DNA of 60,709 nucleotides. Origin: Deltaproteobacteria bacterium (GTDB lineage Bacteria > Myxococcota > JACPTQ01). Every line of letters starts with the position of its first letter. Within the stretch, counting starts at the first letter, position 1. The notes below the pieces were generated by a model. The model did no database searches. It was not told where the DNA came from and worked only from the letters and a program-made list of their open reading frames with translations. The stretch is from contig JACPTQ010000061.1 in NCBI GenBank assembly GCA_016192705.1, positions 1-60,709 of the forward strand, read 5' to 3'. The position numbers and the translations under genes were made by a program. Below, piece by piece: positions 29,846 through 53,257 of this stretch.

Positions 29846-29980
29846 TCTCCTTCTCCTCCGACCTCTGTGAACTCAGTGTCTGCGCGGCACTGCCGCGACG
29901 CCAACTTCGAACATCCCTATTCTTCAAATGCTTGGCGCTGTCCTGTCGGTTCTCCTCGAGTGTGGTTTCTCTTCTCTTCC
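29846..29980. repeat. Repeat family A, diverged copy
   Basis: Between the jelly-roll lipoprotein and the TonB receptor, the sequence CCGACCTCTGTGAACTCAG, a palindromic GCGGCACTGCCGCG, and GTGTGGTTTCTCTTCTC match pieces of the family A copies at 36.8 and 51.3 kb. The arms are badly diverged. Confidence 0.6.
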
Positions 29981-29985
29981 CATCT

Positions 29986-32322
29986 TCAAATCGCGAGCCG
30001 CAGCGTCGCAAGAATCTTACGTCCGACCTTCGTGTAGATCGGGTAATCGTAGTGCCGCCGGTCGAGCAGATTCTGTCCCACCAAGCCGATCTCCACGTGC
30101 TTTCCAATTCGCCCCGTGATGACGGCATCGAGCTGAACCCACGCCGCCGTCGCGTACGATGCGTCGAGCCTAAAGTCGTTCGTCGGCAACGTCTGAACGA
30201 GCTCATCGTAATTCGCGAACGCCGAAACGTAACGCACGTGCAATCCGCCCGACAGATGCGGAATCCACTTCGCGATGACACCCACGTTCGCCTTCGCATT
30301 CGGCGAACGCCGACTGTTGTGCGTCGCCGTGAAAAGACCGGCTGACCCCGACGCAAGGCTCTGCGTCACGCGCCCAAACGCCACCGACGCATTCGCGTAG
30401 TATCGAATCCACGGCGCCGGATCCCCCTCAAACTCCACCTCGCCCCCAACCTGCTCCAGCTTCGCGCGATTCACCGGCGTTGTTGTCGTCACGCCCTGTG
30501 GATCGCGAGACGCCTCTCGCTCAATCAGGTCCTGAATGATCTGTCCAAACGCGGTGACCGCGAACCGGTGATTCGCGAACCCGCGCGTCTCAAACTGCAG
30601 ATCGACGCCCTGCAACCGCTCCGCGTTGAGTGCCGAATTCCCCGCATAGGTGGTCGTCGCATTCGGCGACTCTGTGTATCGCTGCGCTATCACGTCGGGT
30701 CGCCGATACGCCATCCCACCCGACAAAACCACGCGACTCTTGCCAAACATAAAATTTGCCGCGACCCACGGCGCAATCTGCGCGCCCACATCCGAGAAAT
30801 ACTCGACCCCAAACGCACCCGTGAGGTCGAATCCCTTCGCCACGCCGATCGTATCGACCAGCCGCACGCCTCCGCCGTATGCGTTCTGCGTCGCCGACCC
30901 CGCGAGAACCGAAAAATCGCCGACCGACTCGACTGACCGCCAACTGAACGTCGTCGCCACGTGAAGGTGGTTCGCGCCGCTCGTCCAATCGACCCCGACA
31001 TCAACATCCGCGCGTCGCCCATGCAGCGCGAACCTCTGCGCGCGCGTCTCCGTCGCGCCGCTGTTCGTCACGCTTAAGTCTTGACGGTTCGCGATTGCGA
31101 ACGATTCGCCGAAAACAAGTTCGAGCCCCTTCGACAACGTTCGCCGATACCGCGCGCGATGCACCAGCGAAAACGTGTCGACGTCATCAATTGTCGTTTC
31201 CCCCGGAATCCAATTCTCGCCGCCGCGTCCCCACGACAGCGCGCCAAACAAATCGAACGTCGCCTTGCTGCCAAAATCCTTCTCCCACCGCACCGACGCG
31301 CTCGGCCCTTCAAAAGAATCTTTGCGATTGACGTTTTGAAGCGTGTAGTCGGTTTGCAGCTCCGTCCCGGCTGGAAAATATTTTTCGTTTTGCGTCCGCT
31401 TCCAACCGCTCGACAGCACGAGTCGCGACCCATCAAAATCCCAGGCCGCGCGCAAGCGATAGTCCTGCGTCCCGCGCTCGCCGTATGTGAGCTCGAGCTC
31501 CGCCACGCGCTCGTCGGGCCCTCGTGTCACGATGTCGATGACGCCAGACATCGCATCGGCGCCATACGCGTGAGACATCGGCCCGCGCACGACTTCGATC
31601 CGCTCGATGTCGAGGAGCCCGACTGGAAGCTCCGACCACGCAACACCGCCATGCGCCGGATTGTTGACCGGCTGCCCATCGATGAGCACCAACACCGCCG
31701 CTGTGCGATCCCGTGCCGTGCCTCGAATTCCGACGCCGAGCTCATTTTGTGTTTTAGAAAAAGCATCGACACCCGCAACCCGCTTCAACAGCTCTGGGAT
31801 GTTTGTTGCGCCCGAATGGACAATCGCGTCGCGATCGATAACGGTTTTGACTGCCGAACGCGGGAACCGCGATTTCACGGCCCGTTTTAGAATCGCACCT
31901 TCTTTTTTCCTACCCGCGTTTTTCTTCTCCCTCAAATCGCCATTCCTCTGCGTCTCTGTGGTTTCTCCCCTTCCCGCTCCCGCTTCAACCATCACCACGC
32001 GATGTGGCGCATCCGGCGTTCCAAAAAGCGCAATCGGCTTTCGCGCCGCATCGAGCCCAGCGATGACGTACTCAACCGCCGCGCCCTTCATCGCCTCCGC
32101 CGGAATCGCGCAGAGCCAGTCGTCGCCCTTCACATCGCAATCGGCCGTCGTGTACGCGTCTTCCGGGTCGATTCGATAGAGAATCGCGACCGCGCCGTCC
32201 GCAAAACGCGCCTTGAGCACCAGCTTCTCGCCTCGCGTCGCCTCGCGCGGCGCCTCGTGCTCAAGTGCCGCAGCCCCATTCATCATCAGAAGCGCATGGA
32301 GAAAAAGTGGCGTCCCGATCAT
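29986..32322 (-). CDS. TonB-dependent outer-membrane receptor
   Basis: 778 residues. Leader MIGTPLFLHALLMMNGAAAL, then an N-terminal beta-domain (25-112) of unknown type, a charged linker, a plug domain (from about 155, TNIPELLKRVAGVDAF, GIRGTARDRTAAVLVLIDGQPVNN, IERIEVVRGPMSHAYGADAMSGVIDI) and a barrel with terminal LATLRLAI. No TonB box was identified with certainty. The linker at 112-140 is encoded by family A repeat DNA and reads ETTETQR, so an insertion has been tolerated there. The ligand is not predictable; siderophore or vitamin uptake is typical. No TonB/ExbBD nearby. Confidence 0.9.
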   Translation of the reverse strand: MIGTPLFLHALLMMNGAAALEHEAPREATRGEKLVLKARFADGAVAILYRIDPEDAYTTADCDVKGDDWLCAIPAEAMKGAAVEYVIAGLDAARKPIALFGTPDAPHRVVMVEAGAGRGETTETQRNGDLREKKNAGRKKEGAILKRAVKSRFPRSAVKTVIDRDAIVHSGATNIPELLKRVAGVDAFSKTQNELGVGIRGTARDRTAAVLVLIDGQPVNNPAHGGVAWSELPVGLLDIERIEVVRGPMSHAYGADAMSGVIDIVTRGPDERVAELELTYGERGTQDYRLRAAWDFDGSRLVLSSGWKRTQNEKYFPAGTELQTDYTLQNVNRKDSFEGPSASVRWEKDFGSKATFDLFGALSWGRGGENWIPGETTIDDVDTFSLVHRARYRRTLSKGLELVFGESFAIANRQDLSVTNSGATETRAQRFALHGRRADVDVGVDWTSGANHLHVATTFSWRSVESVGDFSVLAGSATQNAYGGGVRLVDTIGVAKGFDLTGAFGVEYFSDVGAQIAPWVAANFMFGKSRVVLSGGMAYRRPDVIAQRYTESPNATTTYAGNSALNAERLQGVDLQFETRGFANHRFAVTAFGQIIQDLIEREASRDPQGVTTTTPVNRAKLEQVGGEVEFEGDPAPWIRYYANASVAFGRVTQSLASGSAGLFTATHNSRRSPNAKANVGVIAKWIPHLSGGLHVRYVSAFANYDELVQTLPTNDFRLDASYATAAWVQLDAVITGRIGKHVEIGLVGQNLLDRRHYDYPIYTKVGRKILATLRLAI
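31917..31985. repeat. Repeat family A copy inside the TonB receptor gene
   Basis: Read on the plus strand: CTCTGCGTCTCTGTGGTTTC followed by a GGGAGCGGG-type tract; on the coding strand it is in frame and translated as GRGETTETQRNGDLREKKN. Only one arm is well preserved. Confidence 0.7.
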
Positions 32323-35187: not shown

Positions 35188-36906
35188 TCAATACCGCGCT
35201 TGGAACATGAGCGCGAAACCGAGGCGATACGGCTCTTCGAAGACGCGCGTCGCGATGCCTGTCGTGGCGTCATCTTTGAGGCGCGTCGAATTGTTGTCGA
35301 TCTTGTAAAACACCTCGGACAAGAGCGCGAGGTATTCGCCGATATCCCAGCGGAGCGTCAACTTGAACGCGAGGATCGGCGTCGCCGTCGCGTTCTTCGG
35401 CAAGACCGTGAAGTCGCCCTGCTTTCGCACAACGACCGTGCGCGTCCCCGACGTATCGGGCTGCGAAACGCTCCCCGTCGTCGCCGACGTGATCTCCGCG
35501 GTGAACGTCGACGGCCACTGCACGCCGACAATGAATCCCGGCGTCAGCCGCGGCCCCTTGAAGTGGTAGTCGGCACCCACGCTAAAGAAAAATTCCGGCC
35601 GAACCGAAATCTTTTCGGTTTCAGGCGTGTTCGGGTTGTCGCGTGGGAAATCTTGGTACGGCACGAACGACGGCACGTTGTAGAGGATGTACGCGAGGTC
35701 TCGGTACACGACGTCCGAGAAGACGCGCAGATGGTTCCAGCGAAACTTCAGGTTGAAATCGCCCGCAAACGCGTTTTGCCGCACCGTTTGTCCCGACACG
35801 ACGGGGTCTTCAAGAACTTGCCAAATCCACGAAAACTCGGACGACGCCACAAACGACATCCCTGGGTCGTATTTTTGTGGCGCGAAGATGCGGTCGGTCG
35901 CGTTCGGGTCGTTCTTGTACAAACGAAAATCGACCGACGTTTGGATCGGCGCGCCAAGATGGTACGTAACCTGCGCCGACATCCCGCCCGCGGGGACGCT
36001 CTTCCCAAGCACAGCCGGCCTCGGATTCACGCCTTTGTCGAAATACCCTGCGCCAAATTCGACGCGCAACGAATCGAGAATGTCCCAACCGGCGCCACCC
36101 AAAACGCCCCAATAGATCTGCTGCTCGTTTATCTTCTCGTTCAAGATGACCGCGCTCTTTGCGCCGACGAAGGCGTAAAGTCGATCGTAGTCGAGATGAA
36201 GCCGCACGCCCGGCGCCGGTCCATCGCGCCGCGGAAAGATGTCGCCGCCCGCCCACGAAATCGCGTAACTGTAGCCGAGACGAAAGCGCTCGGTGTCAAA
36301 CGGAAAAAGCGTGAGCGACAATCCGCGACGGCGCACTCCTTCAGCCGCCTCGCGGAAATCGACGTTCAGCTTGATGTACGAGCCGTCGTCGTTGAATCGC
36401 TCGCCCGACAGCGACCCGATGACGTCGTACTTAATGACGAGCGCCGACTCGACCGTCAGCCGCTTAAAGAACGATGGGAATTTCTTATAGAGGACAAGGT
36501 GCGCGAGCGACTCCTGCCCGGAAAACTTCGTGTTGTAGTTGTCGAAAAAGAAAAGGTTTCCGGGTCGCAGCCCAAATCCCGGCCCCGGCGACGTCGGTGT
36601 TGTCTCGCCTGGCCCGTGCAGCACGTCGTCGTCCGAAAAAGTGAAGGTCAAGCGCGTGTCGACAAAATCGCCCGCGTACGCTCGATTCGAAAAAACAAAG
36701 AATAGGAGTAACCACACCAGAAAACCCAAAGACACCTTCGGCGCAAAACGTGGTTCGGGTGAAATGGTGTTGGTGTCGCGGCAGTGCCGCGCAGGCACAG
36801 AGTTAAAGAGGCCAGAGGAGAGATTTCTCAGTGGAAAAAGATTCCTCTTCCGACCTCTCCACCTCTGTGACTCTGTGGTTTCTCTTTTCTTCATCTTCTT
36901 CATCAT
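35188..36906 (-). CDS. Outer-membrane beta-barrel-like protein with repeat-derived N-terminal extension
   Basis: 572 residues from ATG. The N-terminus reads MMKKMKKRETTESQ and the first 45 residues or so are translated from family A repeat DNA; the conventional-looking signal peptide (SLGFLVWLLLFFVFSNRAYAG) comes after it. The rest alternates aromatic and polar residues in strands and ends with a terminal tyrosine (LGFALMFQARY), consistent with a large barrel. Residues are similar to no family I recognise. ATG is 8 bp after the upstream stop with a weak GGCGGGAAG. Because no ATG lies between the repeat and the signal, an export leader with an unusually long n-region is the simplest reading. 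Confidence 0.72.
   Translation of the reverse strand: MMKKMKKRETTESQRWRGRKRNLFPLRNLSSGLFNSVPARHCRDTNTISPEPRFAPKVSLGFLVWLLLFFVFSNRAYAGDFVDTRLTFTFSDDDVLHGPGETTPTSPGPGFGLRPGNLFFFDNYNTKFSGQESLAHLVLYKKFPSFFKRLTVESALVIKYDVIGSLSGERFNDDGSYIKLNVDFREAAEGVRRRGLSLTLFPFDTERFRLGYSYAISWAGGDIFPRRDGPAPGVRLHLDYDRLYAFVGAKSAVILNEKINEQQIYWGVLGGAGWDILDSLRVEFGAGYFDKGVNPRPAVLGKSVPAGGMSAQVTYHLGAPIQTSVDFRLYKNDPNATDRIFAPQKYDPGMSFVASSEFSWIWQVLEDPVVSGQTVRQNAFAGDFNLKFRWNHLRVFSDVVYRDLAYILYNVPSFVPYQDFPRDNPNTPETEKISVRPEFFFSVGADYHFKGPRLTPGFIVGVQWPSTFTAEITSATTGSVSQPDTSGTRTVVVRKQGDFTVLPKNATATPILAFKLTLRWDIGEYLALLSEVFYKIDNNSTRLKDDATTGIATRVFEEPYRLGFALMFQARY
36776..36900. repeat. Repeat family A palindrome at gene start
   Basis: About 125 bp, arms CAGGCACAGAGTTAAAGAGG and GACCTCTCCACCTCTGTGAC..TGTGGTTTCTC. 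Translated in frame in the outer-membrane protein gene as KKRETTESQ...SSGLFNS. A GGCAGTGCCGCG palindrome adjoins the left end, as it does in the copy at 29.9 kb. Confidence 0.85.
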
Positions 36907-36914
36907 CTTCCCGC

Positions 36915-38393
36915 CTACTTCGACAAATCCCGCGGGTCACGGGGTTCAATCACCCACCCAGGCTTTCCCGGCACGTCTCGCAACATCCCTTGCACGAACT
37001 TGATCACCGCCCCCAAGTTTTGCTTCGGGTCGAAATCTGGCACGGTGTCACGCGAATTGACGAGGATTGCGCTCCCACCCCCGCCCTCGAGGATCACTTT
37101 CCACTGCCCGTACTCTTTGTAATCGCACTCGCTCGAGCAGCTCACGTCGTTTTCGCAATCGCTCTCGCACTGCTCTTCCTGCTGAACCACCGAGTCGCAC
37201 GGCGTGCATGCACCGCCCACGCACGACTGGCCCGCCTTGGGGCAATCCGAATTCACGTCGCAATAGCCGCAAAACTCGCATTCCCCCGAGTTATTGAAGT
37301 CGCAGTTCTTAAAAATCGGCGACACCTTAACCTGGTCGACGCGCACAAACGACGACTCGCGCTTTTCCATTTCGGCGCTCGCATACGTGATGCCAATCGC
37401 ACTCGTCAAGACATCGGCCGCGGGCAACCAAGAGAGCGCTTGGCACGTTGTTCCCGAGCAAACCTCGCCCGGATTGCATTGACTCCCGCTTGTGCAGATA
37501 CGGTTCTGGCACAGCCCCGCGTCGGCGCTCGTGCAAAATGCACCCACATCGCACGTCTGGTTCCCGCACGATCGATCGACAGCCCACGACGGAAAATTCA
37601 CCTCGGTAAAGCCGTTCGACGTGTTGCGCGGAAACTCGACGACGCCGCCCGCCAAATACGTGAGCCGATCGCCGCGAAAGAGATCGTCGGGGCGACTGTG
37701 CGTGTACGCGAAAATATTTCCGTACGCCGACGTCGTTATATCGCCCACGTAAAAGCCGTCTTGCGTCACGTGCGTTACGATGAGCGTCCCCTGGTCGATG
37801 CGGACCGCCTTGCGAACAAAAGGCGAAAGGGTCGTTCCCTGAACTTCGGCAATCGACAAATTCGGGAAGTAGATCTGCTGCGACGAACCGATCGCGCGCG
37901 GCTTGAGCGGCGCATCGAGCGTTGCCGCCGACTGACAGTTGAATTCGCCGGTAAAGGCGTTGATCGTTGCACGCCCAAAGGCTCGCACGATCGTCACGAG
38001 CTGGCCGGTCAGCTGTCCGTTGATGAGAAACGCGCTGCACGGTGTCACTTCGCCCGGCGACCCTGTGAAAAAAATTGATTCGTTCGTGGTGTAGGGCAAA
38101 CCATCCGAACCGACCGCCTGAACGTCAACCGTGAAAGTCGCCGGCGTATTGGCCGCCGACGGCAACCGACTCGACAGCGACCCCGTCACACCTGCATCGC
38201 CGCGAATCGTGACTTGGAACGATTGCAAAAAAATCCCCTGCGGCGTCACGCGCACGTCGCATGCAGAAACCATTAGGAGTAACCACAGAGACGCAGAGTT
38301 AAGGAGGCCGGAGGAGGATTTTTCCAATAGGAAAATTTTTCTCTTCTGACCTCTCGATCTCTGTGCCTCTGTGGTTTCTCTTCTCTTCATCAT
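36915..38393 (-). CDS. Cys-rich lipoprotein with repeat-derived signal peptide
   Basis: 492 residues. The ATG at 38393 overlaps the stop of the 5'-nucleotidase gene (TGATG). The first 42 residues are translated from family A repeat DNA, and its right arm gives the hydrophobic core of the lipoprotein signal (SASLWLLLMVSAC, lipobox MVSAC). A TTG at 38327 inside the repeat, giving a 27-residue leader, is an alternative start. Mature domain: beta-rich region of about 250 residues, then Cys-rich motifs (SCGNQTCDVGAFCTS, CNPGEVCSGTTC, CEFCGYCDVNSDC). No catalytic motif recognised. Middle gene of a five-gene operon. Confidence 0.75.
   Translation of the reverse strand: MMKRRETTEAQRSRGQKRKIFLLEKSSSGLLNSASLWLLLMVSACDVRVTPQGIFLQSFQVTIRGDAGVTGSLSSRLPSAANTPATFTVDVQAVGSDGLPYTTNESIFFTGSPGEVTPCSAFLINGQLTGQLVTIVRAFGRATINAFTGEFNCQSAATLDAPLKPRAIGSSQQIYFPNLSIAEVQGTTLSPFVRKAVRIDQGTLIVTHVTQDGFYVGDITTSAYGNIFAYTHSRPDDLFRGDRLTYLAGGVVEFPRNTSNGFTEVNFPSWAVDRSCGNQTCDVGAFCTSADAGLCQNRICTSGSQCNPGEVCSGTTCQALSWLPAADVLTSAIGITYASAEMEKRESSFVRVDQVKVSPIFKNCDFNNSGECEFCGYCDVNSDCPKAGQSCVGGACTPCDSVVQQEEQCESDCENDVSCSSECDYKEYGQWKVILEGGGGSAILVNSRDTVPDFDPKQNLGAVIKFVQGMLRDVPGKPGWVIEPRDPRDLSK
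38277..38392. repeat. Repeat family A palindrome at gene start
   Basis: Best-preserved copy: left arm AACCACAGAGACGCAGAG, right arm CTCTGTGCCTCTGTGGTT, with an inner stem of purine-rich AGGAGGCCGGAGG against CTTCTGACCTC. Total about 115 bp. It lies at the junction of the nucleotidase and Cys-rich lipoprotein genes and is translated in the latter. Confidence 0.9.
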
Positions 38394-40441
38394 CACTGTG
38401 CCGTCACCGTCGTGATGCGGTTGTCGCTCGCGGGCGCGATGCACGGCGGGTACGACCCCGCGACGTTAAGCTGCGGATCGTCGCCACACGCGAGCTCGAC
38501 TCCCTTACACCGCTCCTGCAATTTGATGTGGTCCGACACCGCCGAGCGCAGCGTGATTCCCGTGTTCACCTGCGTCGTGTTTCGCTTCAGAACCTCGAAC
38601 CCGCTCCCACCCGCCGCAATGAAATCGTTCGTCGCCAGCTCGTACGAGAACTCGGGCTTAATCGGCGCCCGGCACGTCTTCGAATTGTTTTTGTCCCGCT
38701 GGTTCGTGCAAATCTCCCCGCGCGCCGCGCAATCGGTATCCGCGGAGCACGGATAACCGCTCCCGCCAATCGTGATGCGCTCGCCCTTCAGCGCCACGCA
38801 GTTCATGACAAACGTCGCCCCCGAGATTTGCACCTGCGAATCGCAACCGCGCTCGGCGCTTCGACACGTCACGTAATCAAACAGCTCCTGAACTTCGTTC
38901 CCCGACAAGAACATCTTCGTGATCGAATTCTCGAACGGCAGCACATTAAAGAGCACTTCGTCCGTGACCATCCCTTTGCTGAACACATCGCGAATCCCGA
39001 GCGAATTCGTCAGCGAAAAATCGGTCTCCACGCGAACGCGCCGCTGAATCGCCTCGGCCACGAAATTCCCAAGCGGGCTGTCACCCCCTGTTGTCGAGAA
39101 CCGCTCAACCCGCGTCGGCGCGTAACCCCAAACCCGCGTCAAGTTGAGCCGCCGATTCATCTCCTCGATGTACGGCTCCATGAGCCGCTCCATCTCGCCA
39201 TCGGTCGCCTTTTTCACGCCCACGCGACACGGGTCGCAGCACCCCCGGCAGTATGCCTTCGTCACCGTCCCGCCCGTCGCCATTCCCGCGTCGATCGACG
39301 CGCCCGTCACGTTCACGCAATCGCCCAGCCGGTCGTACCGCGTTCCGTCGGCCTGGCACGCCGCCGTCGCCTTCATCGTCGCATCACTCTCGAAATCGGC
39401 GCAGCTCTTGTCGGGATCCCAGTTGTCGATGGGGCGCAACTCGTACGAGTGCGAGACGATCTCTTTGTTCCGCACAACAACGTGCAAAACGCCAAGGTAT
39501 TTCAAAAACGCGCCCGAGTGCGTGAGCACCACCGGCCGATTGTCGAGGTCGTAGACGACTTTCGGCGGCATCGTCACGACGTGCAAATGCCCACCCATCA
39601 CGAGATCGATGCCGCGCGTCTTCTGAATGACTTGCTCGTCCTCGTCGTACGTCGGCTGTATGCACCCCGACTCGGAGTACGCGCTCGTTCCACCGCCCGA
39701 GAGCCCCATATGCGACAACAAAATCACGAGGTCGACCTGCGGCTGTAAGAAGTCGATGTAGTCCTGAAGCACCTGAACGTTGTCGATCGGCGTGAGCCCG
39801 AGCTTGTTTCCGCCCTCACCCACCGACAACATCGAGCTGAAGTTCGCGGCGCCGATAACGCCGAGCTTCAAGCCGTTGACGTTCAGGATGGTGTACGGCT
39901 GCGCGAGGTTTGCGAGCTGCGTGACACCCGGCACGCGAATGTCGTGGTAAATGTAGTTTGCCGCGAGCGACGGGAACTTCGCCCAGCGCGAAAGCTGCGT
40001 CGCGAGGTTCGCCGTGCCCTTGTCGAATTCGTGGTTTCCGATGACGACCGCATCGACGCCAATCTCAGACATGGCGCGGATTTCCGTCTCGCCGTTGAAG
40101 ATGTTGAAAATCGGTGCACCCTGAAAACAATCGCCCGAATCGAGGTGCGCGATGCGGTCGGCCTTGCCACGCTCCTCTTTAATCATCGCCGCCAGCCGCG
40201 CGACGCCGCCAAACGGTTGCTTCGACTGGTCGAGGCCAAGCCCCCTATCGGTCAAGATGACTTCGTTTGCCTTGTACGGAATGAGCCGCGAGTGCCAATC
40301 GCTCGTGTGCAAAATCGTGAGCTGGATGTCTTGGTCGCGAATGACAACCGTCTGCGACGTCGACGTGGTCGTGCAGGATAGGAAAAGGAGAAACCACAGA
40401 GACGCAGAGAAATGGAGGCCGGATGAGGGTCTCTTCAACAA
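38393..40441 (-). CDS. 5'-nucleotidase/metallophosphatase lipoprotein with repeat-derived signal peptide
   Basis: 682 residues from a TTG in the repeat, preceded by GAGGAGAGGAGCA, a good Shine-Dalgarno sequence; no in-frame ATG is available upstream. The leader reads LHFSASLWFLLFLSC, from family A repeat DNA, with Cys as lipobox. The metallophosphatase domain has the UshA motifs ILHTSDWHSRL, HLDSGDCFQG, IGNHEFDKG, LSHMGLSGGG and GGHLH. The C-terminal 5'-nucleotidase domain follows, with a Cys-rich insert (CRGCCDPCRVG). Members hydrolyse nucleotides or sugar nucleotides outside the cytoplasm; substrate uncertain. Confidence 0.88.
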   Translation of the reverse strand: MLKRPSSGLHFSASLWFLLFLSCTTTSTSQTVVIRDQDIQLTILHTSDWHSRLIPYKANEVILTDRGLGLDQSKQPFGGVARLAAMIKEERGKADRIAHLDSGDCFQGAPIFNIFNGETEIRAMSEIGVDAVVIGNHEFDKGTANLATQLSRWAKFPSLAANYIYHDIRVPGVTQLANLAQPYTILNVNGLKLGVIGAANFSSMLSVGEGGNKLGLTPIDNVQVLQDYIDFLQPQVDLVILLSHMGLSGGGTSAYSESGCIQPTYDEDEQVIQKTRGIDLVMGGHLHVVTMPPKVVYDLDNRPVVLTHSGAFLKYLGVLHVVVRNKEIVSHSYELRPIDNWDPDKSCADFESDATMKATAACQADGTRYDRLGDCVNVTGASIDAGMATGGTVTKAYCRGCCDPCRVGVKKATDGEMERLMEPYIEEMNRRLNLTRVWGYAPTRVERFSTTGGDSPLGNFVAEAIQRRVRVETDFSLTNSLGIRDVFSKGMVTDEVLFNVLPFENSITKMFLSGNEVQELFDYVTCRSAERGCDSQVQISGATFVMNCVALKGERITIGGSGYPCSADTDCAARGEICTNQRDKNNSKTCRAPIKPEFSYELATNDFIAAGGSGFEVLKRNTTQVNTGITLRSAVSDHIKLQERCKGVELACGDDPQLNVAGSYPPCIAPASDNRITTVTAQ

Positions 40442-40490
40442 TGCTCCTCTCCTCAGATCTCTCGAACTCAGTGCCTTTGTGGTTTCTCTT
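40382..40490. repeat. Repeat family A palindrome at gene start
   Basis: Arms AACCACAGAGACGCAGAG and ACTCAGTGCCTTTGTGGTT, with an inner GGCCGGATGAGGG/GCTCCTCTCCTC region. About 110 bp. Supplies Shine-Dalgarno, TTG start and signal peptide of the nucleotidase gene. Confidence 0.88.
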
Positions 40491-40502
40491 ATTCTTATGA
40501 AG

Positions 40503-41984
40503 TTACGGGCAATGGATGTCGGCGGCCGAGCGCGGCATCACGTCGAATCGCGTCGTTGAACCCGCGTCGGAGCTCTGCACGAACGACGACACAACGCCGA
40601 TAATCTCAGAGCAGTTTGCGCCGCTCGACAGCCCGGTTGGGTTGTAGAGCTTCGTCAAAAGCGTCACGTATTTCGAGGGGTCGCTCCCCGTACCCACCAC
40701 CGGTCGGCAGTTCTGCGTGCACCCCGCGGCTGGCCCCTTCACTTCGACATTCGCAAGCCGAACCAAGACGCCTTCATACTGCTCGCCGTTTCCGCCGTTC
40801 AAATCGAGCGGCGTCACGTTGAGCGGTGTCACATTCGCGGGCGTCGCCGAAACGATCGATACCGATTTCGCCTTGACCTGCGTGTTCGCAAAGTACTCCT
40901 CGACGTTTCCCGTCGCCGTGATCGTCTGCCCAAGCCCGATGTCGCCCGAGAAAACCGACGGCGGGTAAACAACCTTAACTGCCGCCCACGGCGCCGCGTT
41001 CGCGCTGTCCGCTGCGAACACGCCATAAAGCGATACGCCGCCATCGCTCCCACTCTCGACGAATCGCTGTGTCGTCGCGACCAGCGTCGCGAACGATTTT
41101 GGCGAAATGCAAGCCCCCGCGGGCGCTGAATTCGACGCCTGTTGCACCGCCTCGGCCGTCGCGCTCTCCGACGCCGCCGGCGACACCGCCCCAAAATCGT
41201 CCTTTGACCGCACGAGAAGCTTCGCCGCGCCAAAGCTGTAGTACGAAAACCCAACCATCGTCGCGAGCTTGTCGCCGCATGTCGCCGAATACCACTGCCC
41301 GCCCTGCGGCTTCAAAAGGTCGTCGACGACGAGCTTCCCATTGACCTGGAATTCGTTGTACTGGTCAGCCGGCTTCGTCACCGTGACATCCGTCAAACGA
41401 ACCAAAACCCCGTACAGCGCCTCCTCGCGCGCGCCGTTGTCGGCGATATCGGCCGCGTCGGTCAAATCAACGGCGTCAGGCGACGGCGCCGTCTGCCCCG
41501 TCTTCGTGATAACCGCCTCATTGACCTGGTCGGTCCCACGCCTGGCACCCTGCGCCTTATAGTTCTCCCACTTCCCCGCGACGTTTATGATTTCGCCGGG
41601 CGCGTAACTGATCGTGTTGTCTCGGAACCGTAAAAAGATCCCGCGCCATTCGCCACCCGCTTGGTCGCTCGCGAAAACCGCCTGCCACCCGTTCGACGAT
41701 TTGAACTTCGTCGACGTGACGATGAGGCTGTTCAGCGTCACGCGTGTCCCGTACGCGGGTTTGCTTGTGCTCGTCGGACTCCGAAGGTCAAAAACCGTAA
41801 GGGACTGCGTAGTTCCGCCACCACCACCGCCTCCGCCGCCTCCTCCGCCACCGCCACCACCCGCATCGACCTGCGAAGCCGGAGGTGTAGTGCCTGCGCC
41901 GTTATCGCGCACCGCTCCGCACGCAACCACCGCCGACAGAACCAACGTGAAACTCCAAGATGTCGCGCCCTTCGTTGTTGCCAT
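40503..41984 (-). CDS. Lipoprotein with OB-fold (DUF5689-like) repeats and polyglycine linker
   Basis: 493 residues from MATTKG, whose GGAGGAGAACCAG ribosome site decides the start over one nine codons upstream. Lipobox SAVVACG, then 16 consecutive Gly residues (mixed GGN codons). Two OB-fold-like units are visible: LTVFDLRSPTSTS...IFLRFRDNTISYAPGEIINVAGKWENY and KVVYPPSVFSGDIGLGQTITATGNVEEYF...EGVLVRLANVEVKG. Similar domains occur in extracellular nucleases and DUF5689 proteins and may bind nucleic acid or sugars. First gene of a five-gene minus operon with a 5'-nucleotidase next. Function is inferred from context. Confidence 0.8.
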   Translation of the reverse strand: MATTKGATSWSFTLVLSAVVACGAVRDNGAGTTPPASQVDAGGGGGGGGGGGGGGGGTTQSLTVFDLRSPTSTSKPAYGTRVTLNSLIVTSTKFKSSNGWQAVFASDQAGGEWRGIFLRFRDNTISYAPGEIINVAGKWENYKAQGARRGTDQVNEAVITKTGQTAPSPDAVDLTDAADIADNGAREEALYGVLVRLTDVTVTKPADQYNEFQVNGKLVVDDLLKPQGGQWYSATCGDKLATMVGFSYYSFGAAKLLVRSKDDFGAVSPAASESATAEAVQQASNSAPAGACISPKSFATLVATTQRFVESGSDGGVSLYGVFAADSANAAPWAAVKVVYPPSVFSGDIGLGQTITATGNVEEYFANTQVKAKSVSIVSATPANVTPLNVTPLDLNGGNGEQYEGVLVRLANVEVKGPAAGCTQNCRPVVGTGSDPSKYVTLLTKLYNPTGLSSGANCSEIIGVVSSFVQSSDAGSTTRFDVMPRSAADIHCP

Positions 41985-42251
41985 CTGGTTCTCCTCCAAC
42001 GTCCGAATCACCCTAAACTCGCGTTCCGATGCGCCAGCCCGAAACCCTCGACACGCTCCGTCCCCCGTGTTAGTTTTCGAGCCCTCCTACTAAAAAAGGC
42101 CTCTGAAACGAAAGGTGGGAGATTATACGACATGGGGCAATTTGTCAAGGTAGAATTGGGCTTTTTCGGCGCGTCGGAATAGCAGAGGGGCGCCGTTCGG
42201 TTTGTTTTTGTTAGACCAGCGCGGGAGCTGGTCGCGAGAGGGCGGTCAAAA
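41985..42251. promoter_or_regulatory. Divergent intergenic region between two operons
   Basis: 267 bp between the OB-fold lipoprotein (minus) and the triple-DsbA gene (plus). It is more AT-rich than its surroundings (AAAAAAGGCC, GAGATTATACGAC, TTTGTCAAGGTAGAATTGGG), so both promoters are likely here. No reliable -10/-35 pair can be fixed by eye. Confidence 0.45.
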
Positions 42252-44282
42252 ATGAAAAAGGAAACAGCGCTTGTCGGATTCATTTTGGTTGGAGTTGGGG
42301 CATTCCTCCTCGGCTACCTCATTAAGGGTGGTGGCTCGAGCCAGGAGGGCAAGGGGCCGGGCTCGAAGGAGGCGTTCGCCGCGCGGATCGACGTGCCGTC
42401 TGGGCAGGGACTCGGCGCGATACCGCCGACACAGCCACCGCCTGGACCGCGGCCGGCCGCGCCGCCCATTCCGAAAGACGTCTATAAGGTGTCGTATCCG
42501 CCAAACGCCCCCTTCAAGGGCCCGAAAGACGCGAAGGTCACGATTATCGAGTGGTCCGACTTCCAGTGCCCATTCTGCACGCGCGTCGTGCCGACGATGA
42601 ACCAAGTCGCGAAGGAGTACCCGAACGACGTCAAGATCGTGTTTCGCCACAACCCGCTGGGTTTCCACGACAAGGCGAAGCCGGCGGCGATCGCGACAAT
42701 GGCGGCGCACGAGCAGGGGAAGTTCTGGGAGATGCACGACAAGCTGTTCTCGAATCAACAGAAGCTCGGGCGCGACGATTTCGTTCAATACGCGCAGGAG
42801 CTTGGACTCAACATGGATAAATTCAAGGCCGACCTCGACAACCCGCGCATCGCGGCGTACGTCGACGCAGACCAGAAAGACGCCGAAAAGATCGGTGCGC
42901 GCGGGACGCCGGCATTTTTCGTAAACGGACGATTCGTCGCGGGCGCGTATCCTTATGAGAGCTTCAAGACAACGATCGACGAAGAGCTGCCCGCGGCCAA
43001 TGCGAAGCTGCAATCGGGCGTACCGCTCGCGAAACTTTACGAAGCGATCGTCGGTGGCGGCAAGACTGAGATTTCGCAACCGAAGCCGCGCGGTGGTGGC
43101 GGTGCCGACGAAAAGACGGTTTACAAAGTGCCGGCCGACAACGCGCCGTTCAAGGGCCCGAAAGACGCCAAGGTGACGATCGTCGAGTATTCGGATTTTG
43201 AATGCCCGTTCTGCGGGCGCGTGGTGCCGACGCTCGACCGAATCACCAAGGAATATCCGCAGGTGAAGGTCGTCTTCAAGCACAACCCGCTGCCTTTCCA
43301 TCCAAATGCGCCGCTCGCATCGCAGGCCGCGTGGGCCGCGTGGAAGCAGAACAAGTTCTGGGAGTATCACGACAAGCTGTTCACGAACTCGAAGGATTTG
43401 CAGCGGCCGACGCTTGAGCGCTATGCACAGGAGCTTGGCTTGAACATGGGGCGCTTCAAGAGTGACATCGACAGCCCGGCGGCAAAAAAGGCGGTCGACG
43501 ACAACAAGGCCGAGGCGGCAAACTTCAACGCGGGCGGGACGCCGCACTTCTTTATCAATGGGAAGCGATTCGTGGGCGCGCAGCCGTTCGAGAACTTCAA
43601 GACAAAGATTGAAGAGGAGCTGAAGGCGGCGGATGCGCTTGCGGCGAAGAAGATTCCGGTGGCGCGGCTCTATGCGGAGTTGACGAAAGAGGGGAAAACG
43701 AAGGCCGATGCTCCGGGTGGTGGTGGCAAAGACCCGGGACCGGGTGAAGATGACCACAAGCATTACAACGTGCCGGTGGGTGCAGCGCCGACAAAAGGAC
43801 CGCCGAATGCGCCGATCACGATCGTTGTGTTTAGCGATTTCGAGTGTCCGTTCTGCGGGCGCGTAAACCCGACGATCGACCAGGCGATGAAAGAGTATCG
43901 CGGAAAGGTGCGCGTCGCGTTCAAGCACTACCCGCTGCCGTTCCACCCGAACGCGCCGCTCGCATCGGAGGCGTCGATGGCGGCCAACGAGCAAGGGAAG
44001 TTCTGGGAGTATCACGACAAGCTGTTCGCGAATCGCAGTGCGCTGAAGCGTGACGATTTGGAGCGGTATGCGCAAGAGCTCGGGCTCGACGTGGGGCGAT
44101 TCAAGGCGGCGCTCGATTCGGGTAAGTACAAGGCGATTCTCGAGGCCGACAAGGGGCTCGCGGGACAACTCGGCGTCACGGGAACGCCGGCGTCGTTTAT
44201 CAACGGGCGAAAACTCGTGGGTGCGGTGCCGTTTGACAACTTCAAGCGGATCATCGACGAGGAGCTGAAGAAGAAGGGTTAG
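42252..44282 (+). CDS. Membrane-anchored triple DsbA-like thioredoxin-fold protein
   Basis: 676 residues. An N-terminal hydrophobic helix (7-24) ends in LIKGGG, so the protein is probably membrane-anchored with its bulk in the periplasm. Three tandem DsbA/thioredoxin domains follow, each with an intact CPFC: Cys106/109, Cys318/321, Cys532/535, and each with a cis-Pro GTP (219-220, 430-431 and later). The domains also share KFWEMHDKLF-type helices. DsbA-like domains exchange disulfides in secreted proteins; three in one chain is unusual. It precedes a second Dsb-like gene on the same strand. A long antisense open frame is a shadow. Confidence 0.93.
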   Translation: MKKETALVGFILVGVGAFLLGYLIKGGGSSQEGKGPGSKEAFAARIDVPSGQGLGAIPPTQPPPGPRPAAPPIPKDVYKVSYPPNAPFKGPKDAKVTIIEWSDFQCPFCTRVVPTMNQVAKEYPNDVKIVFRHNPLGFHDKAKPAAIATMAAHEQGKFWEMHDKLFSNQQKLGRDDFVQYAQELGLNMDKFKADLDNPRIAAYVDADQKDAEKIGARGTPAFFVNGRFVAGAYPYESFKTTIDEELPAANAKLQSGVPLAKLYEAIVGGGKTEISQPKPRGGGGADEKTVYKVPADNAPFKGPKDAKVTIVEYSDFECPFCGRVVPTLDRITKEYPQVKVVFKHNPLPFHPNAPLASQAAWAAWKQNKFWEYHDKLFTNSKDLQRPTLERYAQELGLNMGRFKSDIDSPAAKKAVDDNKAEAANFNAGGTPHFFINGKRFVGAQPFENFKTKIEEELKAADALAAKKIPVARLYAELTKEGKTKADAPGGGGKDPGPGEDDHKHYNVPVGAAPTKGPPNAPITIVVFSDFECPFCGRVNPTIDQAMKEYRGKVRVAFKHYPLPFHPNAPLASEASMAANEQGKFWEYHDKLFANRSALKRDDLERYAQELGLDVGRFKAALDSGKYKAILEADKGLAGQLGVTGTPASFINGRKLVGAVPFDNFKRIIDEELKKKG

Positions 44283-48435: not shown

Positions 48436-49563
48436 TTACCGTTCACCCGTGACCAAGTCGTCGCGGTGAACGACCTCGTCGGCCGTGCGCGTGCCGAGGA
48501 TTCGCTCAATGTCGGTCGTTTTTTTTCCCGCGATGCGCGCGACATCGGCGCTCGCGTAGTTGACAAGGCCGCGCGCAAACTCAACGCCATCGGGGCCAAC
48601 GATGCGCACCGCGTCGCCCATTTCAAACGCGCCTTCGCAGCGCGTGATCCCCGACGGGAGGAGGCTTTTCTGCGCTTTGACCAGCGCGCGCTTCGCCCCC
48701 GCATCGACGTGAATCGTCCCGGCCGGACTCGCGCCGAAGGCAATCCAATGCTTTCGCGCACCGAGCGACCGCGCCGACGGCAGAACCACGGTTCCGACAT
48801 CGTCGCCAGCCAGCAGCCTTCGAATCGCATGCGGCTCGTGGCCATTTACGATCGCCGTCGCAACGCCAAACTCCGACGCTGTCTGCGCGGCCTCGAGCTT
48901 CGACGGCATCCCGCCGGTCCCGACGCGACTCTTCTTCCCAAAATCGATCGTCTTTACAACCTCACTGACGTCATGAACCACTGAAATTCGTTTCGCACCT
49001 GGCGCTGCCGGGTCACGATCGAAGACGCCATCGCAGTCCGTCAAGAGAACAAGGAGACCCGCCTCGACGACGTTCGTGACGAGCGCCGCCAACCGATCGT
49101 TGTCGCCAAACTGAATCTCTTCAAACGCGACCGTATCGTTTTCGTTGACGATTGGAATAACGCCCAACTCAAACAACTCCTGAAACGTTCGCCGCGCATT
49201 CAGGAACCGTCGCCGATCGCGAAGATCGTCGTGCGTAAGAAGCACCTGCGCGACCGTCATCCCGTGAACCGCGAACGCCTCCGCGTATTGGTGCATGAGC
49301 GCGCCCTGCCCGACCGCGGCCACCGCCTGCTTCGCGTGAATCGACACCGGACGCACCGCAAGCCCGAGCCGCGCGACCCCAAGCGCCACCGCACCCGACG
49401 ACACAACAACGACCAAGCGCCCCGTTGCTCGAACGCCGGCAACGTCCCGCGCGAGCGCGAAAAACGCCTCGTGAAAAACGGGCGCGTCGTCCCGCGACAG
49501 CACCGAGCTTCCAACTTTCAACACGATGCGTTTCGCCGACGCGATCTGCGCGCGCGTCTTCAT
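48436..49563 (-). CDS. proB: Glutamate 5-kinase
   Basis: 375 residues from MKTRAQ, whose ATG overlaps the stop of the FGE-like gene (ATGA). Amino acid kinase domain: RIVLKVGSSVLS, VVVVSSGAVALGVARLG, PIVNENDTVAFEEIQFGDNDRLAALV, LTDCDGVFDRDP and GTGGMPSKLEAAQTA; the C-terminal part (about 280-375) is a PUA domain with IHVDAGAKRAL. It phosphorylates glutamate as the first step of proline synthesis. proA is not in the window. Its 3' end is duplicated 660 bp further downstream. Overlap with the lipoprotein gene suggests coupled translation. Confidence 0.95.
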   Translation of the reverse strand: MKTRAQIASAKRIVLKVGSSVLSRDDAPVFHEAFFALARDVAGVRATGRLVVVVSSGAVALGVARLGLAVRPVSIHAKQAVAAVGQGALMHQYAEAFAVHGMTVAQVLLTHDDLRDRRRFLNARRTFQELFELGVIPIVNENDTVAFEEIQFGDNDRLAALVTNVVEAGLLVLLTDCDGVFDRDPAAPGAKRISVVHDVSEVVKTIDFGKKSRVGTGGMPSKLEAAQTASEFGVATAIVNGHEPHAIRRLLAGDDVGTVVLPSARSLGARKHWIAFGASPAGTIHVDAGAKRALVKAQKSLLPSGITRCEGAFEMGDAVRIVGPDGVEFARGLVNYASADVARIAGKKTTDIERILGTRTADEVVHRDDLVTGER

Positions 49564-51134
49564 CGGCAGCAGCGAAACCCGGCGAGCGCCGTCTTTGTCA
49601 CGTCCTTCACCTTCACGCGCGTACGACAGCGCGCCTTGGGCCCATCGCCCACCGCACCGCCCATCAAACAAAACGTCTCCGCGTCGCGATCGCGGTCCTT
49701 ACACGTCGTCCATTCGGCAACGTTCCCGGTCAAATCGTACACGCCCCATGTCGTCTTGCACTTAGGACTTGCGCCCGCGGCCTTGACCGCGCTTCCCTCT
49801 GAATTGCAGCTTTTCGGATCGTACCCCGAACCATACGGGTACAGCATATGCCTCTTGTCGCCGTTGCACGCCTTGCGAAACTCTTTGTCCGAGCAAAGCC
49901 GCTTCCCGATAGCTTTGCACCGCGTATCGGCCTCGCGCGCCTTGACCCCAACCGCTGGTGGCACGCCCTCGGCATTCGGAAACTCGAATCGATCGATGAG
50001 AAAATAGTCGATCTTCGACATCCCGAGGAGCCCAAACCGCTCGTTCTCGAGTCGCGGCCGCACGAGCGCCGGTTCGGCCTTGGGCGGCGTCAGCACCGGG
50101 TCCGCGCCAATACCGCGAACGTCGTATTTAAGTGACAGCTTCACGCGTTGCTTCTCGATCGGCTCAACCCGAAATCGTCGCCGCGTCAGCGAATCAACCG
50201 TGACGTCCGCCGCACCCGCGCTTGCCGCACCCGCTCTCGGTCCCGCTTCTACTTTCTTATCCCCTTTTTTCTTCTCTTCTCCGGGCCTCGCCGGATCGAC
50301 ATCCAGCGTTGCGTGCAACTCAGCCGCCGTAACAACCGCAAGCGCTTCATCAACGACCACATACCCACGCACCGCGACCGGCCGCTTTCGACCGCGCCAA
50401 CCGCGCCCCGGTGAATCGGGAATGAGCACTTTCGCGAGCGCCGGCGTGAGCGGTTTATCGCCCCCTTCCGCCTCCGATCCCGGAAGCCCGACCGCGAGTA
50501 GCGCCACGTCGAATCGCACCGCGCGTCGCCCCTCGCGCGTCTCAACGCGCCCCTTCGAAAACCCAAGCCGCCCACCCATTTCGTCAACGACCACGCGCAC
50601 CGGCCCCAATGCCCACGCGAGCCATCGCCGCTCATCCGCCGCGGAGTTCTCGCGATATCGAAACTCACCGCCCGGCAACTCGCGGTGGACCAGCGCCGTC
50701 CGCCTGACGCCTTCGATCTCGACCGCCGGAAACCAATACGCCTCAAACCCAGCGCCACCGTTCAACTCAAACGTCAAATGGACCGCCCCCGACTTCGCCG
50801 CTTCGACCTTCGCAGTTTCCGTTACCGTCTCGCGCCGCGTCCCGCTCTCCGACGCGACGATCCACGAGCGCTCGAGCCGAAACGCGCCGAGGCGCTTCGC
50901 GACCTCCTCCGAGTTCATCCGGACTATCTTCTCAACAACGATCGGGTCGTCCACCACCTTCGCTGGGGGCCCATCCGCCGAGGCCGCGGGCGCTTGCCCC
51001 TCAAGAAACTGCTTCTTCGCGGCGATATTCCGCTGGTCGTTTTGGCGCGCGCAGGAAAGTGAGAAGAGAAGAGAAAACACAGAGACACAGATGAATAGAG
51101 ATCTGAGGAGCGGAAAACAAAGTGAAATGAACAT
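49560..51134 (-). CDS. Lipoprotein with C-terminal formylglycine-generating-enzyme-like (SUMF1) domain
   Basis: 524 residues. Signal peptide SLFICVSVFSLLFSLSC, read from a family A repeat arm, with Cys as lipobox. Residues about 60-330 form an unassigned beta-rich domain with a Lys/Gly/Ala linker. The C-terminal 150 residues match the SUMF1/FGE-sulfatase-modifying fold: DYFLIDRFEFPN, GKRLCSDKEFRKAC, YGSGYDPKSCN, WGVYDLTGNVAEW and GFRCCR. Classical FGE oxidises Cys in sulfatases; a surface lipoprotein of this type is more likely a binding module. No sulfatase nearby. No SD is visible upstream of the ATG. Confidence 0.8.
   Translation of the reverse strand: MFISLCFPLLRSLFICVSVFSLLFSLSCARQNDQRNIAAKKQFLEGQAPAASADGPPAKVVDDPIVVEKIVRMNSEEVAKRLGAFRLERSWIVASESGTRRETVTETAKVEAAKSGAVHLTFELNGGAGFEAYWFPAVEIEGVRRTALVHRELPGGEFRYRENSAADERRWLAWALGPVRVVVDEMGGRLGFSKGRVETREGRRAVRFDVALLAVGLPGSEAEGGDKPLTPALAKVLIPDSPGRGWRGRKRPVAVRGYVVVDEALAVVTAAELHATLDVDPARPGEEKKKGDKKVEAGPRAGAASAGAADVTVDSLTRRRFRVEPIEKQRVKLSLKYDVRGIGADPVLTPPKAEPALVRPRLENERFGLLGMSKIDYFLIDRFEFPNAEGVPPAVGVKAREADTRCKAIGKRLCSDKEFRKACNGDKRHMLYPYGSGYDPKSCNSEGSAVKAAGASPKCKTTWGVYDLTGNVAEWTTCKDRDRDAETFCLMGGAVGDGPKARCRTRVKVKDVTKTALAGFRCCR
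51059..51116. repeat. Repeat family A, partial copy
   Basis: AAACACAGAGACACAGATG and following AGATCTGAGGAGCGG match one arm and half of the inner stem. On the minus strand it encodes the signal peptide of the FGE-like lipoprotein. Confidence 0.75.
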
Positions 51135-51187: not shown

Positions 51188-53257
51188 CTATGGAGTTGGA
51201 AAAACGGGCAGAAACACCGACTGCGGCTTCTCGCTGTGCCGCGGCGCAGCAGTGGAGACCGTTGCCACCGCACCCGCTCCTCCTTCTATCCTACCCCCTT
51301 TTTCTTCCTCCTCAGATCTCTGTGTACTCAGTGTCTCTGTGGTTTCTCTTTTCTTCTCTTCATCCCCCGCTGGCGTCCCCGCGAGGTCAAACGCCCCCTG
51401 CCGCGCGTCGATCGCCGCCTCTTCATCCCCGGTCGGCCGCCAGCTCGTCACCGGCGCGTCGTTCGGCAACTCGAGATGCTGCCATTTCGCATAGACATCA
51501 TGCTTCCCGTGCTGCCGATACCAATCGGCCGTCGTCGCATTCATCATCATCTTCTCGATGATTTGCCGCCACCCGGCGCCCGTGTTGTACGCACAAAAAC
51601 TGATTTCACCGAGCTGCGTCCCATACGGAATGATGCACATCTCCGTCCGCCGAAAGTCGTAGTTGAACAGATCCTGAAACCACATCCCCGCGACAAACAG
51701 CGCGCGCCACTCAAACGCATCCGCATCGCGCTTCCCAAGCCCGTCCGAATTCGCCCCCATTTGCGACATCATCTGTTTGAGCAGCCTCGGCAATTCGAGC
51801 CCCTTGGGCGCCTTGTCGGCGTTGAAATTCCGCAAGACCGACAGAGCGAGCTGCGCCTTCGTCAGCTTTTCGCCGCGATTCGCGTCGGTAATTTCTTGGA
51901 TGTCCCTAAGGAGCTGCTCCATGTTCAGGATTTCCATGAGCGGCACCATCTCGCGCGTCTTCTTGTTGACGAAAAGAATCGTCCCAATCCCGCAGTTCGG
52001 GTGACACCCGCACTTCATCGATCCCCAATCCGCGTTCTCGCCTTGCAGCAAATCGACCAGGTCGCTAAACGGCCCAAGCGCCGACAGCGGAAACCAGTCG
52101 CGCATCGGCTCGGTGACACCGGTTTGCCGCTTCACGTCGTGCGCAAGGTGCGAGAGCGTGTAGCGTTGCGCCGCGCGCGTCTCGTTGTCGACGTCTTCGT
52201 CACGCCCCGTAAACGACACCGGTTGAAACGAAATCACCGTGACCTTATCGGGGTTCTTTACCGCGAAATCGAGGATCGGCCCGACCTGGTGGTTGTTAAC
52301 GCCGTTCACGACCGTGACGACGAGAACCACGTCGATCTTCGCCGCCGCCAAATTCTCGATCGCGCGCAGCTTCACATCGAACAAATTCCCGATCTTGCGG
52401 TGCATGTTCGCTTCGTTTGTCACCCCGTCGAACTGCAAGTACGCGATGCGAAGCCCAGCCGCGGCCGCCTCCTTCGCAAACTCAGGCTCCTGCGCGAATC
52501 GAATCCCGTTCGTCGCGGCCTGTACGCAAAAATACCCGACCTCCTTCGAGTACCGAATCGCATCCAAGAAAAATGGCGAAATCGTCGGCTCGCCCCCCGA
52601 AAACTGCACCGACAACTGTCGCCGCGGCTTAATTGAAACAGCGTTGTCTAGAATTTGCTTGACGTCGTCCCATTGCAGCTCGTGCACATATCCAACCTGG
52701 TTCGCATCCATGAAGCACGGGTCGCACATCATGTTGCAGCGGTTCGTGAGGTCGACCGTCAAGACCGATCCACGCCCAAACTGAATCGACGACGATCCGT
52801 GGTCGCGCAGATGCGTCGCCGGCGCTTTGTAGTCGCGCCCCGGATACAGCCGCTCGAGCCGCCGCATAAACGCCGGGTCGATCGACATCACGTCGCTCCA
52901 CTTCCCGTGCGCCGCGCACTCCTTCTCCATGACGATCTTCCCGTCGCGCTCGACGATCATCGCCTTGATTTCGCCCGGCTTGCCGTCGATGAGATAGCGC
53001 CAATCGCGTGCCCCGCTCAAAATCGCGTCGCGCGCCTCTTTTACACACTTTGGGCAGAGCGAGTCGGTCTCGCGCGGCCAGCCGAGCGGCGGGAATGTGC
53101 GCTCCTTCGACTTTAAGAGCGGCGCCGGCGCCCACTTTGGCTGAAACGGCTTCCCTTCCTTTATATGGTTAACCTTCTGAACGACCGGCCAAGCCATGTT
53201 TGCCGCTTTCGCCGCTGCCTTGGTCGCCGCTTTGGTTAATTTCGCCTTGAACTCCAT
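51188..53257 (-). CDS. Radical SAM enzyme of the Tes/MJ0619 type
   Basis: 689 residues from MEFKAK, preceded by GGGAGGATCTCGAG, which fixes the start. An N-terminal region has CPKC (68-71) and ECAAHG (from 113), a zinc-binding pattern. The radical SAM motif is CNMMCDPC (Cys174, 178, 181), followed by QFSGGEPTISPFFL. This CPxC zinc arrangement and the CNxxCxxCF motif resemble archaeal tetraether lipid synthase Tes and its bacterial homologues, so a role in joining membrane lipid chains is possible but unproven. A C-terminal MCIIPYGTQLGEISFCAYNTG may bind another cluster. The final 58 residues or so come from family A repeat DNA. Confidence 0.82.
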   Translation of the reverse strand: MEFKAKLTKAATKAAAKAANMAWPVVQKVNHIKEGKPFQPKWAPAPLLKSKERTFPPLGWPRETDSLCPKCVKEARDAILSGARDWRYLIDGKPGEIKAMIVERDGKIVMEKECAAHGKWSDVMSIDPAFMRRLERLYPGRDYKAPATHLRDHGSSSIQFGRGSVLTVDLTNRCNMMCDPCFMDANQVGYVHELQWDDVKQILDNAVSIKPRRQLSVQFSGGEPTISPFFLDAIRYSKEVGYFCVQAATNGIRFAQEPEFAKEAAAAGLRIAYLQFDGVTNEANMHRKIGNLFDVKLRAIENLAAAKIDVVLVVTVVNGVNNHQVGPILDFAVKNPDKVTVISFQPVSFTGRDEDVDNETRAAQRYTLSHLAHDVKRQTGVTEPMRDWFPLSALGPFSDLVDLLQGENADWGSMKCGCHPNCGIGTILFVNKKTREMVPLMEILNMEQLLRDIQEITDANRGEKLTKAQLALSVLRNFNADKAPKGLELPRLLKQMMSQMGANSDGLGKRDADAFEWRALFVAGMWFQDLFNYDFRRTEMCIIPYGTQLGEISFCAYNTGAGWRQIIEKMMMNATTADWYRQHGKHDVYAKWQHLELPNDAPVTSWRPTGDEEAAIDARQGAFDLAGTPAGDEEKKRETTETLSTQRSEEEEKGGRIEGGAGAVATVSTAAPRHSEKPQSVFLPVFPTP
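51270..51358. repeat. Repeat family A copy inside the 3' end of the radical SAM gene
   Basis: AGATCTCTGTGTACTCAGTG and TCTCTGTGGTTTCTCTTTTC form the right arm; a GGAGCGGGTGC-type tract adjoins it. On the minus strand it is translated as KKRETTETLSTQRSEEEE followed by GGAGAVATVS. Confidence 0.8.

Follow-up and report, generated by a model that had tools for sequence, protein, structure and literature searches.

The window analysed here is the whole 60,709-nt stretch of contig JACPTQ010000061.1 (C65), which belongs to a deltaproteobacterial genome of 5.21 Mb (G000, whose contigs bear the C-numbers used below). Within it, four successive co-directional minus-strand genes of one operon, in the order 40503–42011, 38393–40441, 36915–38393 and 35188–36906, are separated from one another by three imperfect palindromes of the ~100-nt class. 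The second gene encodes a 5′-nucleotidase, the third a predicted lipoprotein, and the fourth a porin-like protein. The frame of the downstream gene runs open through the full length of each palindrome, and the palindromes, taken upwards from position 36777, are read as KKRETTESQ..LSSGLFNSVPA, KRRETTEAQ..SSSGLLNSASLWLLL, and RIRETTKAL..PSSGLHFSASLWFLLF. That is, they share the reading RETT...SSGL...(SASLW) in the same frame. All three form long hairpins, and an Rfam scan of the window returned a tRNA alone, with nothing matching at the repeats. An earlier note on this DNA had placed three palindromes of one family exactly at three gene junctions, read in one frame, and had seen in them export signals; the coordinates and open frames bear out the placement.

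The nucleotidase gene offers the clearest arrangement, as follows. Two neighbouring TTGs inside the repeat, at 40441 and 40438, are the sole candidate starts in the interval that separates the preceding in-frame stop from the enzyme domain; the start scan of this interval found no in-frame ATG or GTG. A Shine–Dalgarno (SD)-like AGGAG precedes them, also within the repeat. The claim that the repeat supplies both the SD sequence and the TTG start of this gene is thus strengthened, since these TTGs are its only usable starts. The next gene, 36915–38393, probably starts at GTGATGATG, overlapping the nucleotidase stop, and its predicted leader ends in VSAC, which by eye fits the lipobox [LVI][ASTVI][GAS]C. 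In both genes, starting after the repeat leaves no hydrophobic segment at all. The proposal of a Cys-terminated signal with the right arm as its hydrophobic core is therefore supported for both, no other core being available there.

The porin-like gene is different. Its copy lacks the hydrophobic arm; another small palindrome, GCGGCAGTGCCGCG, stands in the place of the outer right arm. Whether the repeat is translated is uncertain because later possible starts (GTG 36735 and TTG 36729) precede an ordinary signal. The suggestion that the repeat adds an N-terminal extension before a normal signal is doubtful, given the loss of the hydrophobic outer arm and the possible later starts. In several copies the small palindrome, as GCGGCAGTGCCGCG(CAG), adjoins the outer arm of the repeat or stands in its place (window 29880–29896 and 36778–36794; C79:111150 and C87:100818), and the two together are a composite form of the element.

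The palindrome is a dispersed family in this genome. The 14-mer CTCTGTGGTTTCTC, with at most one mismatch, occurs 92 times in the 5.21 Mb, versus 5 for the reversed control. Applied to the stretches of the genome examined, an nhmmer profile built from 11 full copies identified no fewer than 77 copies, of which 13 have both arms and 64 are half-copies. Complete copies measure 104–117 nt, within the ~100–150 nt of the dispersed Rickettsia palindromic elements (RPEs), and carry terminal inverted repeats, GAGAAACCACAGAG and CTCTGTGGTTTCTC, as expected of a miniature inverted-repeat transposable element (MITE). The copies are spread over most contigs, on both strands and in all frames. They are diverse, with identities of 60–77%, and show no sign of a shared leader feature beyond hydrophobicity.

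The copies were classified with our own codon-usage open reading frame (ORF) caller and by inspection of starts. By frame reading and start inspection, 17 are in-frame cores of predicted signal peptides. Three lie in the window (38274, 40383 and 51067). Those with a named family elsewhere are at C47 33043 (GspD), C80 14546 (BamA), C52 12579 (BatD), C84 31032 (DUF1302), C30 39392 (FadL), and C4 37176 (ZnuA), and the others are at C58 54818, C82 3014, C43 175097, C10 64112, C9 112846, C81 7926, C27 91847, and C45 56980. The Pfam and NCBIfam families represented are 5′-nucleotidase, GspD secretin, BamA, BatD, ZnuA, FadL/TodX, DUF1302, an FGE-sulfatase lipoprotein, and TPR lipoproteins; every telling family among the 17 is of exported type, and typical cytosolic enzymes number zero. 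In all 17 leaders, the repeat encodes part of the predicted signal peptide of an exported-type protein, as was proposed for Yersinia YPO1552 (Delihas 2007, PMC2759123). Under uniform placement, and assuming that signal peptides cover ~1.6% of the genome (our estimate), 1.2 copies would be expected in them. All three frames of the arm serve as core (SVSLWFL, CVSVVSLL and LCLCGFS), and the median peak hydrophobicity of the repeat-derived cores, 2.27, is on a par with the 2.32 of orthologue leaders.

BamA, the key outer-membrane assembly protein, belongs to this set. The genome has a single full-length BamA (TIGR03303, 607 bits); the next match to the model, at 143 bits, is a 445-aa frame covering only its C-terminal part. 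The segment MGGWKRKSLTLFSSVLCGSVTLWFLLFFSPLARA, directly before DDEP, is the sole possible signal of this BamA, and likeness to the solved BamA begins directly after the repeat, at residue 43. For BamA, GspD, ZnuA, and others, the start scan showed that downstream starts leave no hydrophobic segment.

A further 22 copies lie in frame within unrelated conserved protein genes, as RPEs do, and many of these genes are cytosolic and housekeeping, including those for ThrRS, ProRS, a PPDK-like protein, UvrC, DnaE, EngA, GrpE, GcvT, UvrA, and a CheA-like protein. Compared with E. coli ThrRS (1qf6), the insert amounts to ~20 residues, with EGKREEDEKSNHRDAELGRSEEKSQ replacing SSENRE. The purine-rich arm is in sense in 22/22 of the internal copies (two-sided binomial p = 5e-7). 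Among half-copies, signals contain 11/16 of those in pyrimidine sense and 0/45 of those in purine sense (Fisher 1e-8), a contrast that is partly definitional, as a signal needs a hydrophobic stretch, in a way that the polarity within genes is not. The base composition of the arms matches this division: over 36 nt of every arm, mean GRAVY in the three frames is +1.34, +0.83, and +1.68 in pyrimidine sense and −2.80, −2.46, and −1.93 in purine sense, versus −0.69 for random genome windows. Whatever the frame, the pyrimidine arm thus encodes hydrophobic peptide and the purine arm hydrophilic peptide.

We propose that the element is a MITE-like palindrome, dispersed and with arms of opposite composition, purine-rich on the left and pyrimidine-rich on the right of either strand, so that, whichever way it is transcribed, the purine half would come first and the pyrimidine half after it. 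The purine half would offer GGAGGAG as an SD-like sequence and encode hydrophilic, often basic peptides (RETTETQ, EKRNHRD, EEKPQRH), and the pyrimidine half hydrophobic ones in three frames (SVSLWFLLF, LCVSVVSLLF, LCLCGFSS). A copy inserted into the leader of an exported protein, or beside it, could leave the gene viable provided that the reading frame remains open: the right arm would become all or part of the signal-peptide core, with the ancestral cleavage region or lipobox retained, and some copies would also furnish the ribosome-binding site and start codon. Leader insertions would survive because any frame of the pyrimidine arm is hydrophobic. Within genes, the hydrophilic half alone would be tolerated, persisting as a linker-like insert. 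We hold this explanation as a whole to be probable, at about 0.83. Co-option of the repeat as a signal peptide is well supported by the sequence comparisons, and from these we infer translation from the repeat starts, export and cleavage of the products, and mobility of the element. In five other genes the repeat places AGGAGG or GGAGGT 6–11 nt before ATG (C45:114115, C58:89536, C62:127515, C17:79751 and C57:59374), and it may act there as the ribosome-binding site of genes that have no repeat-encoded leader.

Orthologues have leaders of other origin. In most cases, the nucleotidase orthologues of 11 genomes of the phylum (39–48% identity) begin with a short, repeat-free lipoprotein leader whose Cys falls at the matching position, such as MRLVLVAGWCVSISAC, MKRLFCICLVTLTSC, and ..LALTGTGC. 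The earlier note had named such unrelated leaders in orthologues as support for its reading. BamA orthologues likewise have ordinary signals.

Empty and filled sites are seen in another family, in genus g39, where a cognate palindrome is present in G042, G046, and G047 and was not seen in four congeners. In the carriers, the palindrome lies within the leader of a TolB-like propeller protein (gene 1; ..LDPRFVWETIETPHF), open from a GTG to the mature protein; G043, G044, and G045 have short, unrelated leaders such as MRLFALLLLAGLPAVA. The gene 1 leader is 135 nt long in both G046 and G042 despite the diverged repeat, and 231 nt in G047 (+96 = 3 × 32). Gene 2 encodes an outer-membrane β-barrel (TIGR04565), for which the leaders of G044 and G045 are of the form MRT(L/F)..GAAAAQ; in G046, it starts in the palindrome loop with MTLYKQTPCSPCLCGALLLFAASAAAQ, a signal unrelated to these. 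There (C20; L073 ~1500–1600), the TGA of the interrupted old frame overlaps the new ATG as ATGA, which suggests translational coupling. Such a comparison of leaders was what the earlier note had asked for, here made in relatives and not in the source genome. Most codon-score matches around the repeats of G046 and G047 were discounted, as they look like antisense frames of GC-rich genes.

Several observations weigh against our proposal. A number of the leaders have unusually long n-regions, of 26–30 residues, and the nucleotidase lipobox, FLSC, is non-canonical at −3. Gene calls, starts, and cleavage sites were assigned by eye with a simple SD score. The nearest relatives of the source genome that were compared are of the same phylum, and the empty sites come from another family with a cognate, non-identical repeat. 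G013 holds more than 100 copies of a related palindrome, mostly upstream of genes or intergenic, with no signal use seen, and G046 has two clear leader cases in ~40 sites. Co-option is not general in the superfamily; it belongs to particular elements and lineages.

The repeats might instead be non-coding intergenic elements, such as RNA-stability or terminator hairpins, with frames open by chance and true starts downstream. The hairpins are indeed strong, many copies of this and related palindromes are intergenic, and the porin-like gene has a plausible later start. This reading would, however, leave the two lipoproteins, BamA, GspD, ZnuA, and others with no hydrophobic segment, yet BamA and GspD must be exported, and it would deprive the nucleotidase of any start before its domain. 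It also sits poorly with the 22 copies within ORFs and with the g39 frame, maintained through divergence and a 96-nt insertion, and we consider it very unlikely. Still less credible is a spread of shared leaders by local duplication or gene conversion among neighbouring operon genes, with no mobile repeat. The copies at 36793 and 38289 do share 80% over 106 nt, and two palindromes upstream of gspD (C47:33043 and 33615; L029/L030), 572 bp apart and 99% identical, are probably a recent local duplication. But the nearest counterpart of the 40383 copy lies on C79 (0.77) and not among its window neighbours (0.75 and 0.60), and the dispersal of copies over contigs, strands, and frames points the same way; a local origin of the leaders was rejected on the pairwise identities.

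It is tempting to go further and see in the palindrome an export and translation-initiation module, recruited by selection and regulated through a hairpin that controls initiation. The nucleotidase SD and start do sit within the hairpin, adjacent junctions of one operon use the same module, purine arms carry SDs before the five other genes, and the ATGA overlap in G046 suggests coupling. The same pattern, however, would be expected from neutral survival, since signal peptides accept a wide variety of hydrophobic sequence, and the diversity of the copies, with no sign of anything but hydrophobicity conserved in the leaders, also speaks against selection. We regard regulated domestication as unlikely. 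The broader idea that the strand-asymmetric palindrome is a ready-made N-terminal module (SD, start, n-region, and core, in any frame), repeatedly recruited under selection and rewiring core genes such as bamA in their initiation and export, is doubtful, if slightly less so. Of the domestication suggested in the earlier note, the part that stands is that two of the three genes, and ~15 more genome-wide, have no core available other than the arm; a selected benefit is possible, and the data fit tolerance at least as well.

In-frame palindromes within genes are established for RPEs (Ogata 2000, 2002, as given in reviews PMC10969869 and PMC2229807). Like the present element, RPEs, as summarised in those reviews, are short (~100–150 nt), imperfect, dispersed palindromes that lie in frame in unrelated protein genes and add a peptide to the product. 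The host differs, and the sequence apparently differs too. Moreover, the arms here have separate fates, the purine half in genes and the pyrimidine half in signal peptides, whereas the same summaries report no RPEs as export signals. A signal peptide made partly of a mobile repeat was proposed earlier for YPO1552, among the enterobacterial MITEs YPAL/RU-2 and ERIC/RU-1, and a frame-shifted RU-1 reading is hydrophobic (PMC2759123). That work describes one clear case and weaker ones, in small proteins of unknown function, whereas the present genome alone has ~17 such genes, bamA, gspD, and znuA among them, and a second lineage offers empty and filled sites in congeneric species. Palindromic amphipathic repeat coding elements (PARCELs) are also translated palindromic DNA associated with membrane-targeted proteins, but as tandem 25-residue domains, whereas single insertions form the signal itself here (PMC2996958). 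Novelty, as far as we have found, lies in the scale, the presence of bamA, gspD, and znuA among the genes, the rule of arm polarity and its compositional cause, and the congeneric sites; our literature search found no description of this repeat family, nor of GxxExxY genes with repeats.

Base asymmetry, through which one half encodes hydrophilic peptide and the other hydrophobic peptide whatever the frame, would give a simple physical reason for a mobile palindrome to become a working part of a protein. The origin of new signal peptides from non-coding repeats becomes testable, even for bamA, and repeat-encoded N-termini such as RETTETQ.. or SVSLWLL.., when met in environmental genomes, are not necessarily misannotated.

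Table 1. Features of the window, with the evidence for each.
Feature	Position	Strand	Evidence
Gene, no Pfam family	40503–42011	−	Pfam search
Full palindrome copy, in-frame leader of nucleotidase gene	40383–40493	−	nhmmer 95.5 bits; open in gene frame; hairpin z −2.1
AGGAG, SD-like, inside repeat, 7 nt before TTG	40449–40453	−	start/SD scan, score 5.0
Candidate TTG start inside repeat, second TTG directly after	40439–40441	−	start scan; ORF 38393–40441
Predicted lipoprotein leader MLKRPSSGLHFSASLWFLLFLSC; core SASLWFLLF = right arm	40373–40441	−	frame reading, start scan, hydrophobicity comparison
5′-nucleotidase/UshA-like gene (Metallophos + 5_nucleotid_C)	38393–40441	−	Pfam PF00149, PF02872; NCBIfam
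Full palindrome copy, in-frame leader of gene 36915–38393	38274–38388	−	nhmmer 99.8 bits; hairpin −52 kcal/mol, z −8.1
Predicted lipoprotein leader MMKRRETTEAQRSRGQKRKIFLLEKSSSGLLNSASLWLLLMVSAC; start overlaps nucleotidase stop	38259–38393	−	frame reading, start scan
Predicted lipoprotein gene, no Pfam match	36915–38393	−	Pfam search
Third palindrome copy, outer right arm replaced by GCGGCAGTGCCGCG	36777–36897	−	nhmmer, sequence inspection; hairpin z −4.7
Porin-like gene; own signal VSLGFLVWLLLFFVFSNRAYA after repeat; start ATG 36906 or GTG 36735/TTG 36729	35188–36906	−	start scan
Right half-copy inside leader MFISLCFPLLRSLFICVSVFSLLFSLSC of gene 49560–51134 (FGE-sulfatase domain)	51067–51113	−	frame reading, Pfam, start scan
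Left half-copy, purine arm sense to minus-strand genes, near 3′ end of radical SAM gene	51306–51351	−	nhmmer, frame reading
Left half-copy in frame in TonB-receptor gene (RGETTETQRNGDLR), upstream of plug domain	31930–31969	−	frame reading

Palindromes of the ACCACAGAG type have arms flanking a GxxExxY gene (PDDEXK_3, TIGR04256) in G000 (C31 27182–27229 and 27611–27670; L019) and in G013 (C288:10760–11342; L124), two different families. Any part played by this nuclease in moving the repeat is a guess only. The exact right arm has one match each in named genomes of Planctomycetota, Armatimonadetes, and others; these were not used, their context being unclear.

A low-complexity GCGGG(N)GCGG tract, read as KEEAGAGAGAGA, adjoins many of the purine half-copies, for example in internal copies L011 (~1501), L043 (~2480), and L052 (compare window 19824–20003 and 53564–53755), which suggests that a second repeat grows beside them. 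A 133-nt inverted repeat near both contig ends (172–304 and 60575–60707, 89% complementary) is probably a dispersed repeat that broke the assembly. Finally, window 42252–44282 holds one gene with three tandem DsbA-like thioredoxin-type repeats, and a fourth similar stretch lies in the next gene (45388).

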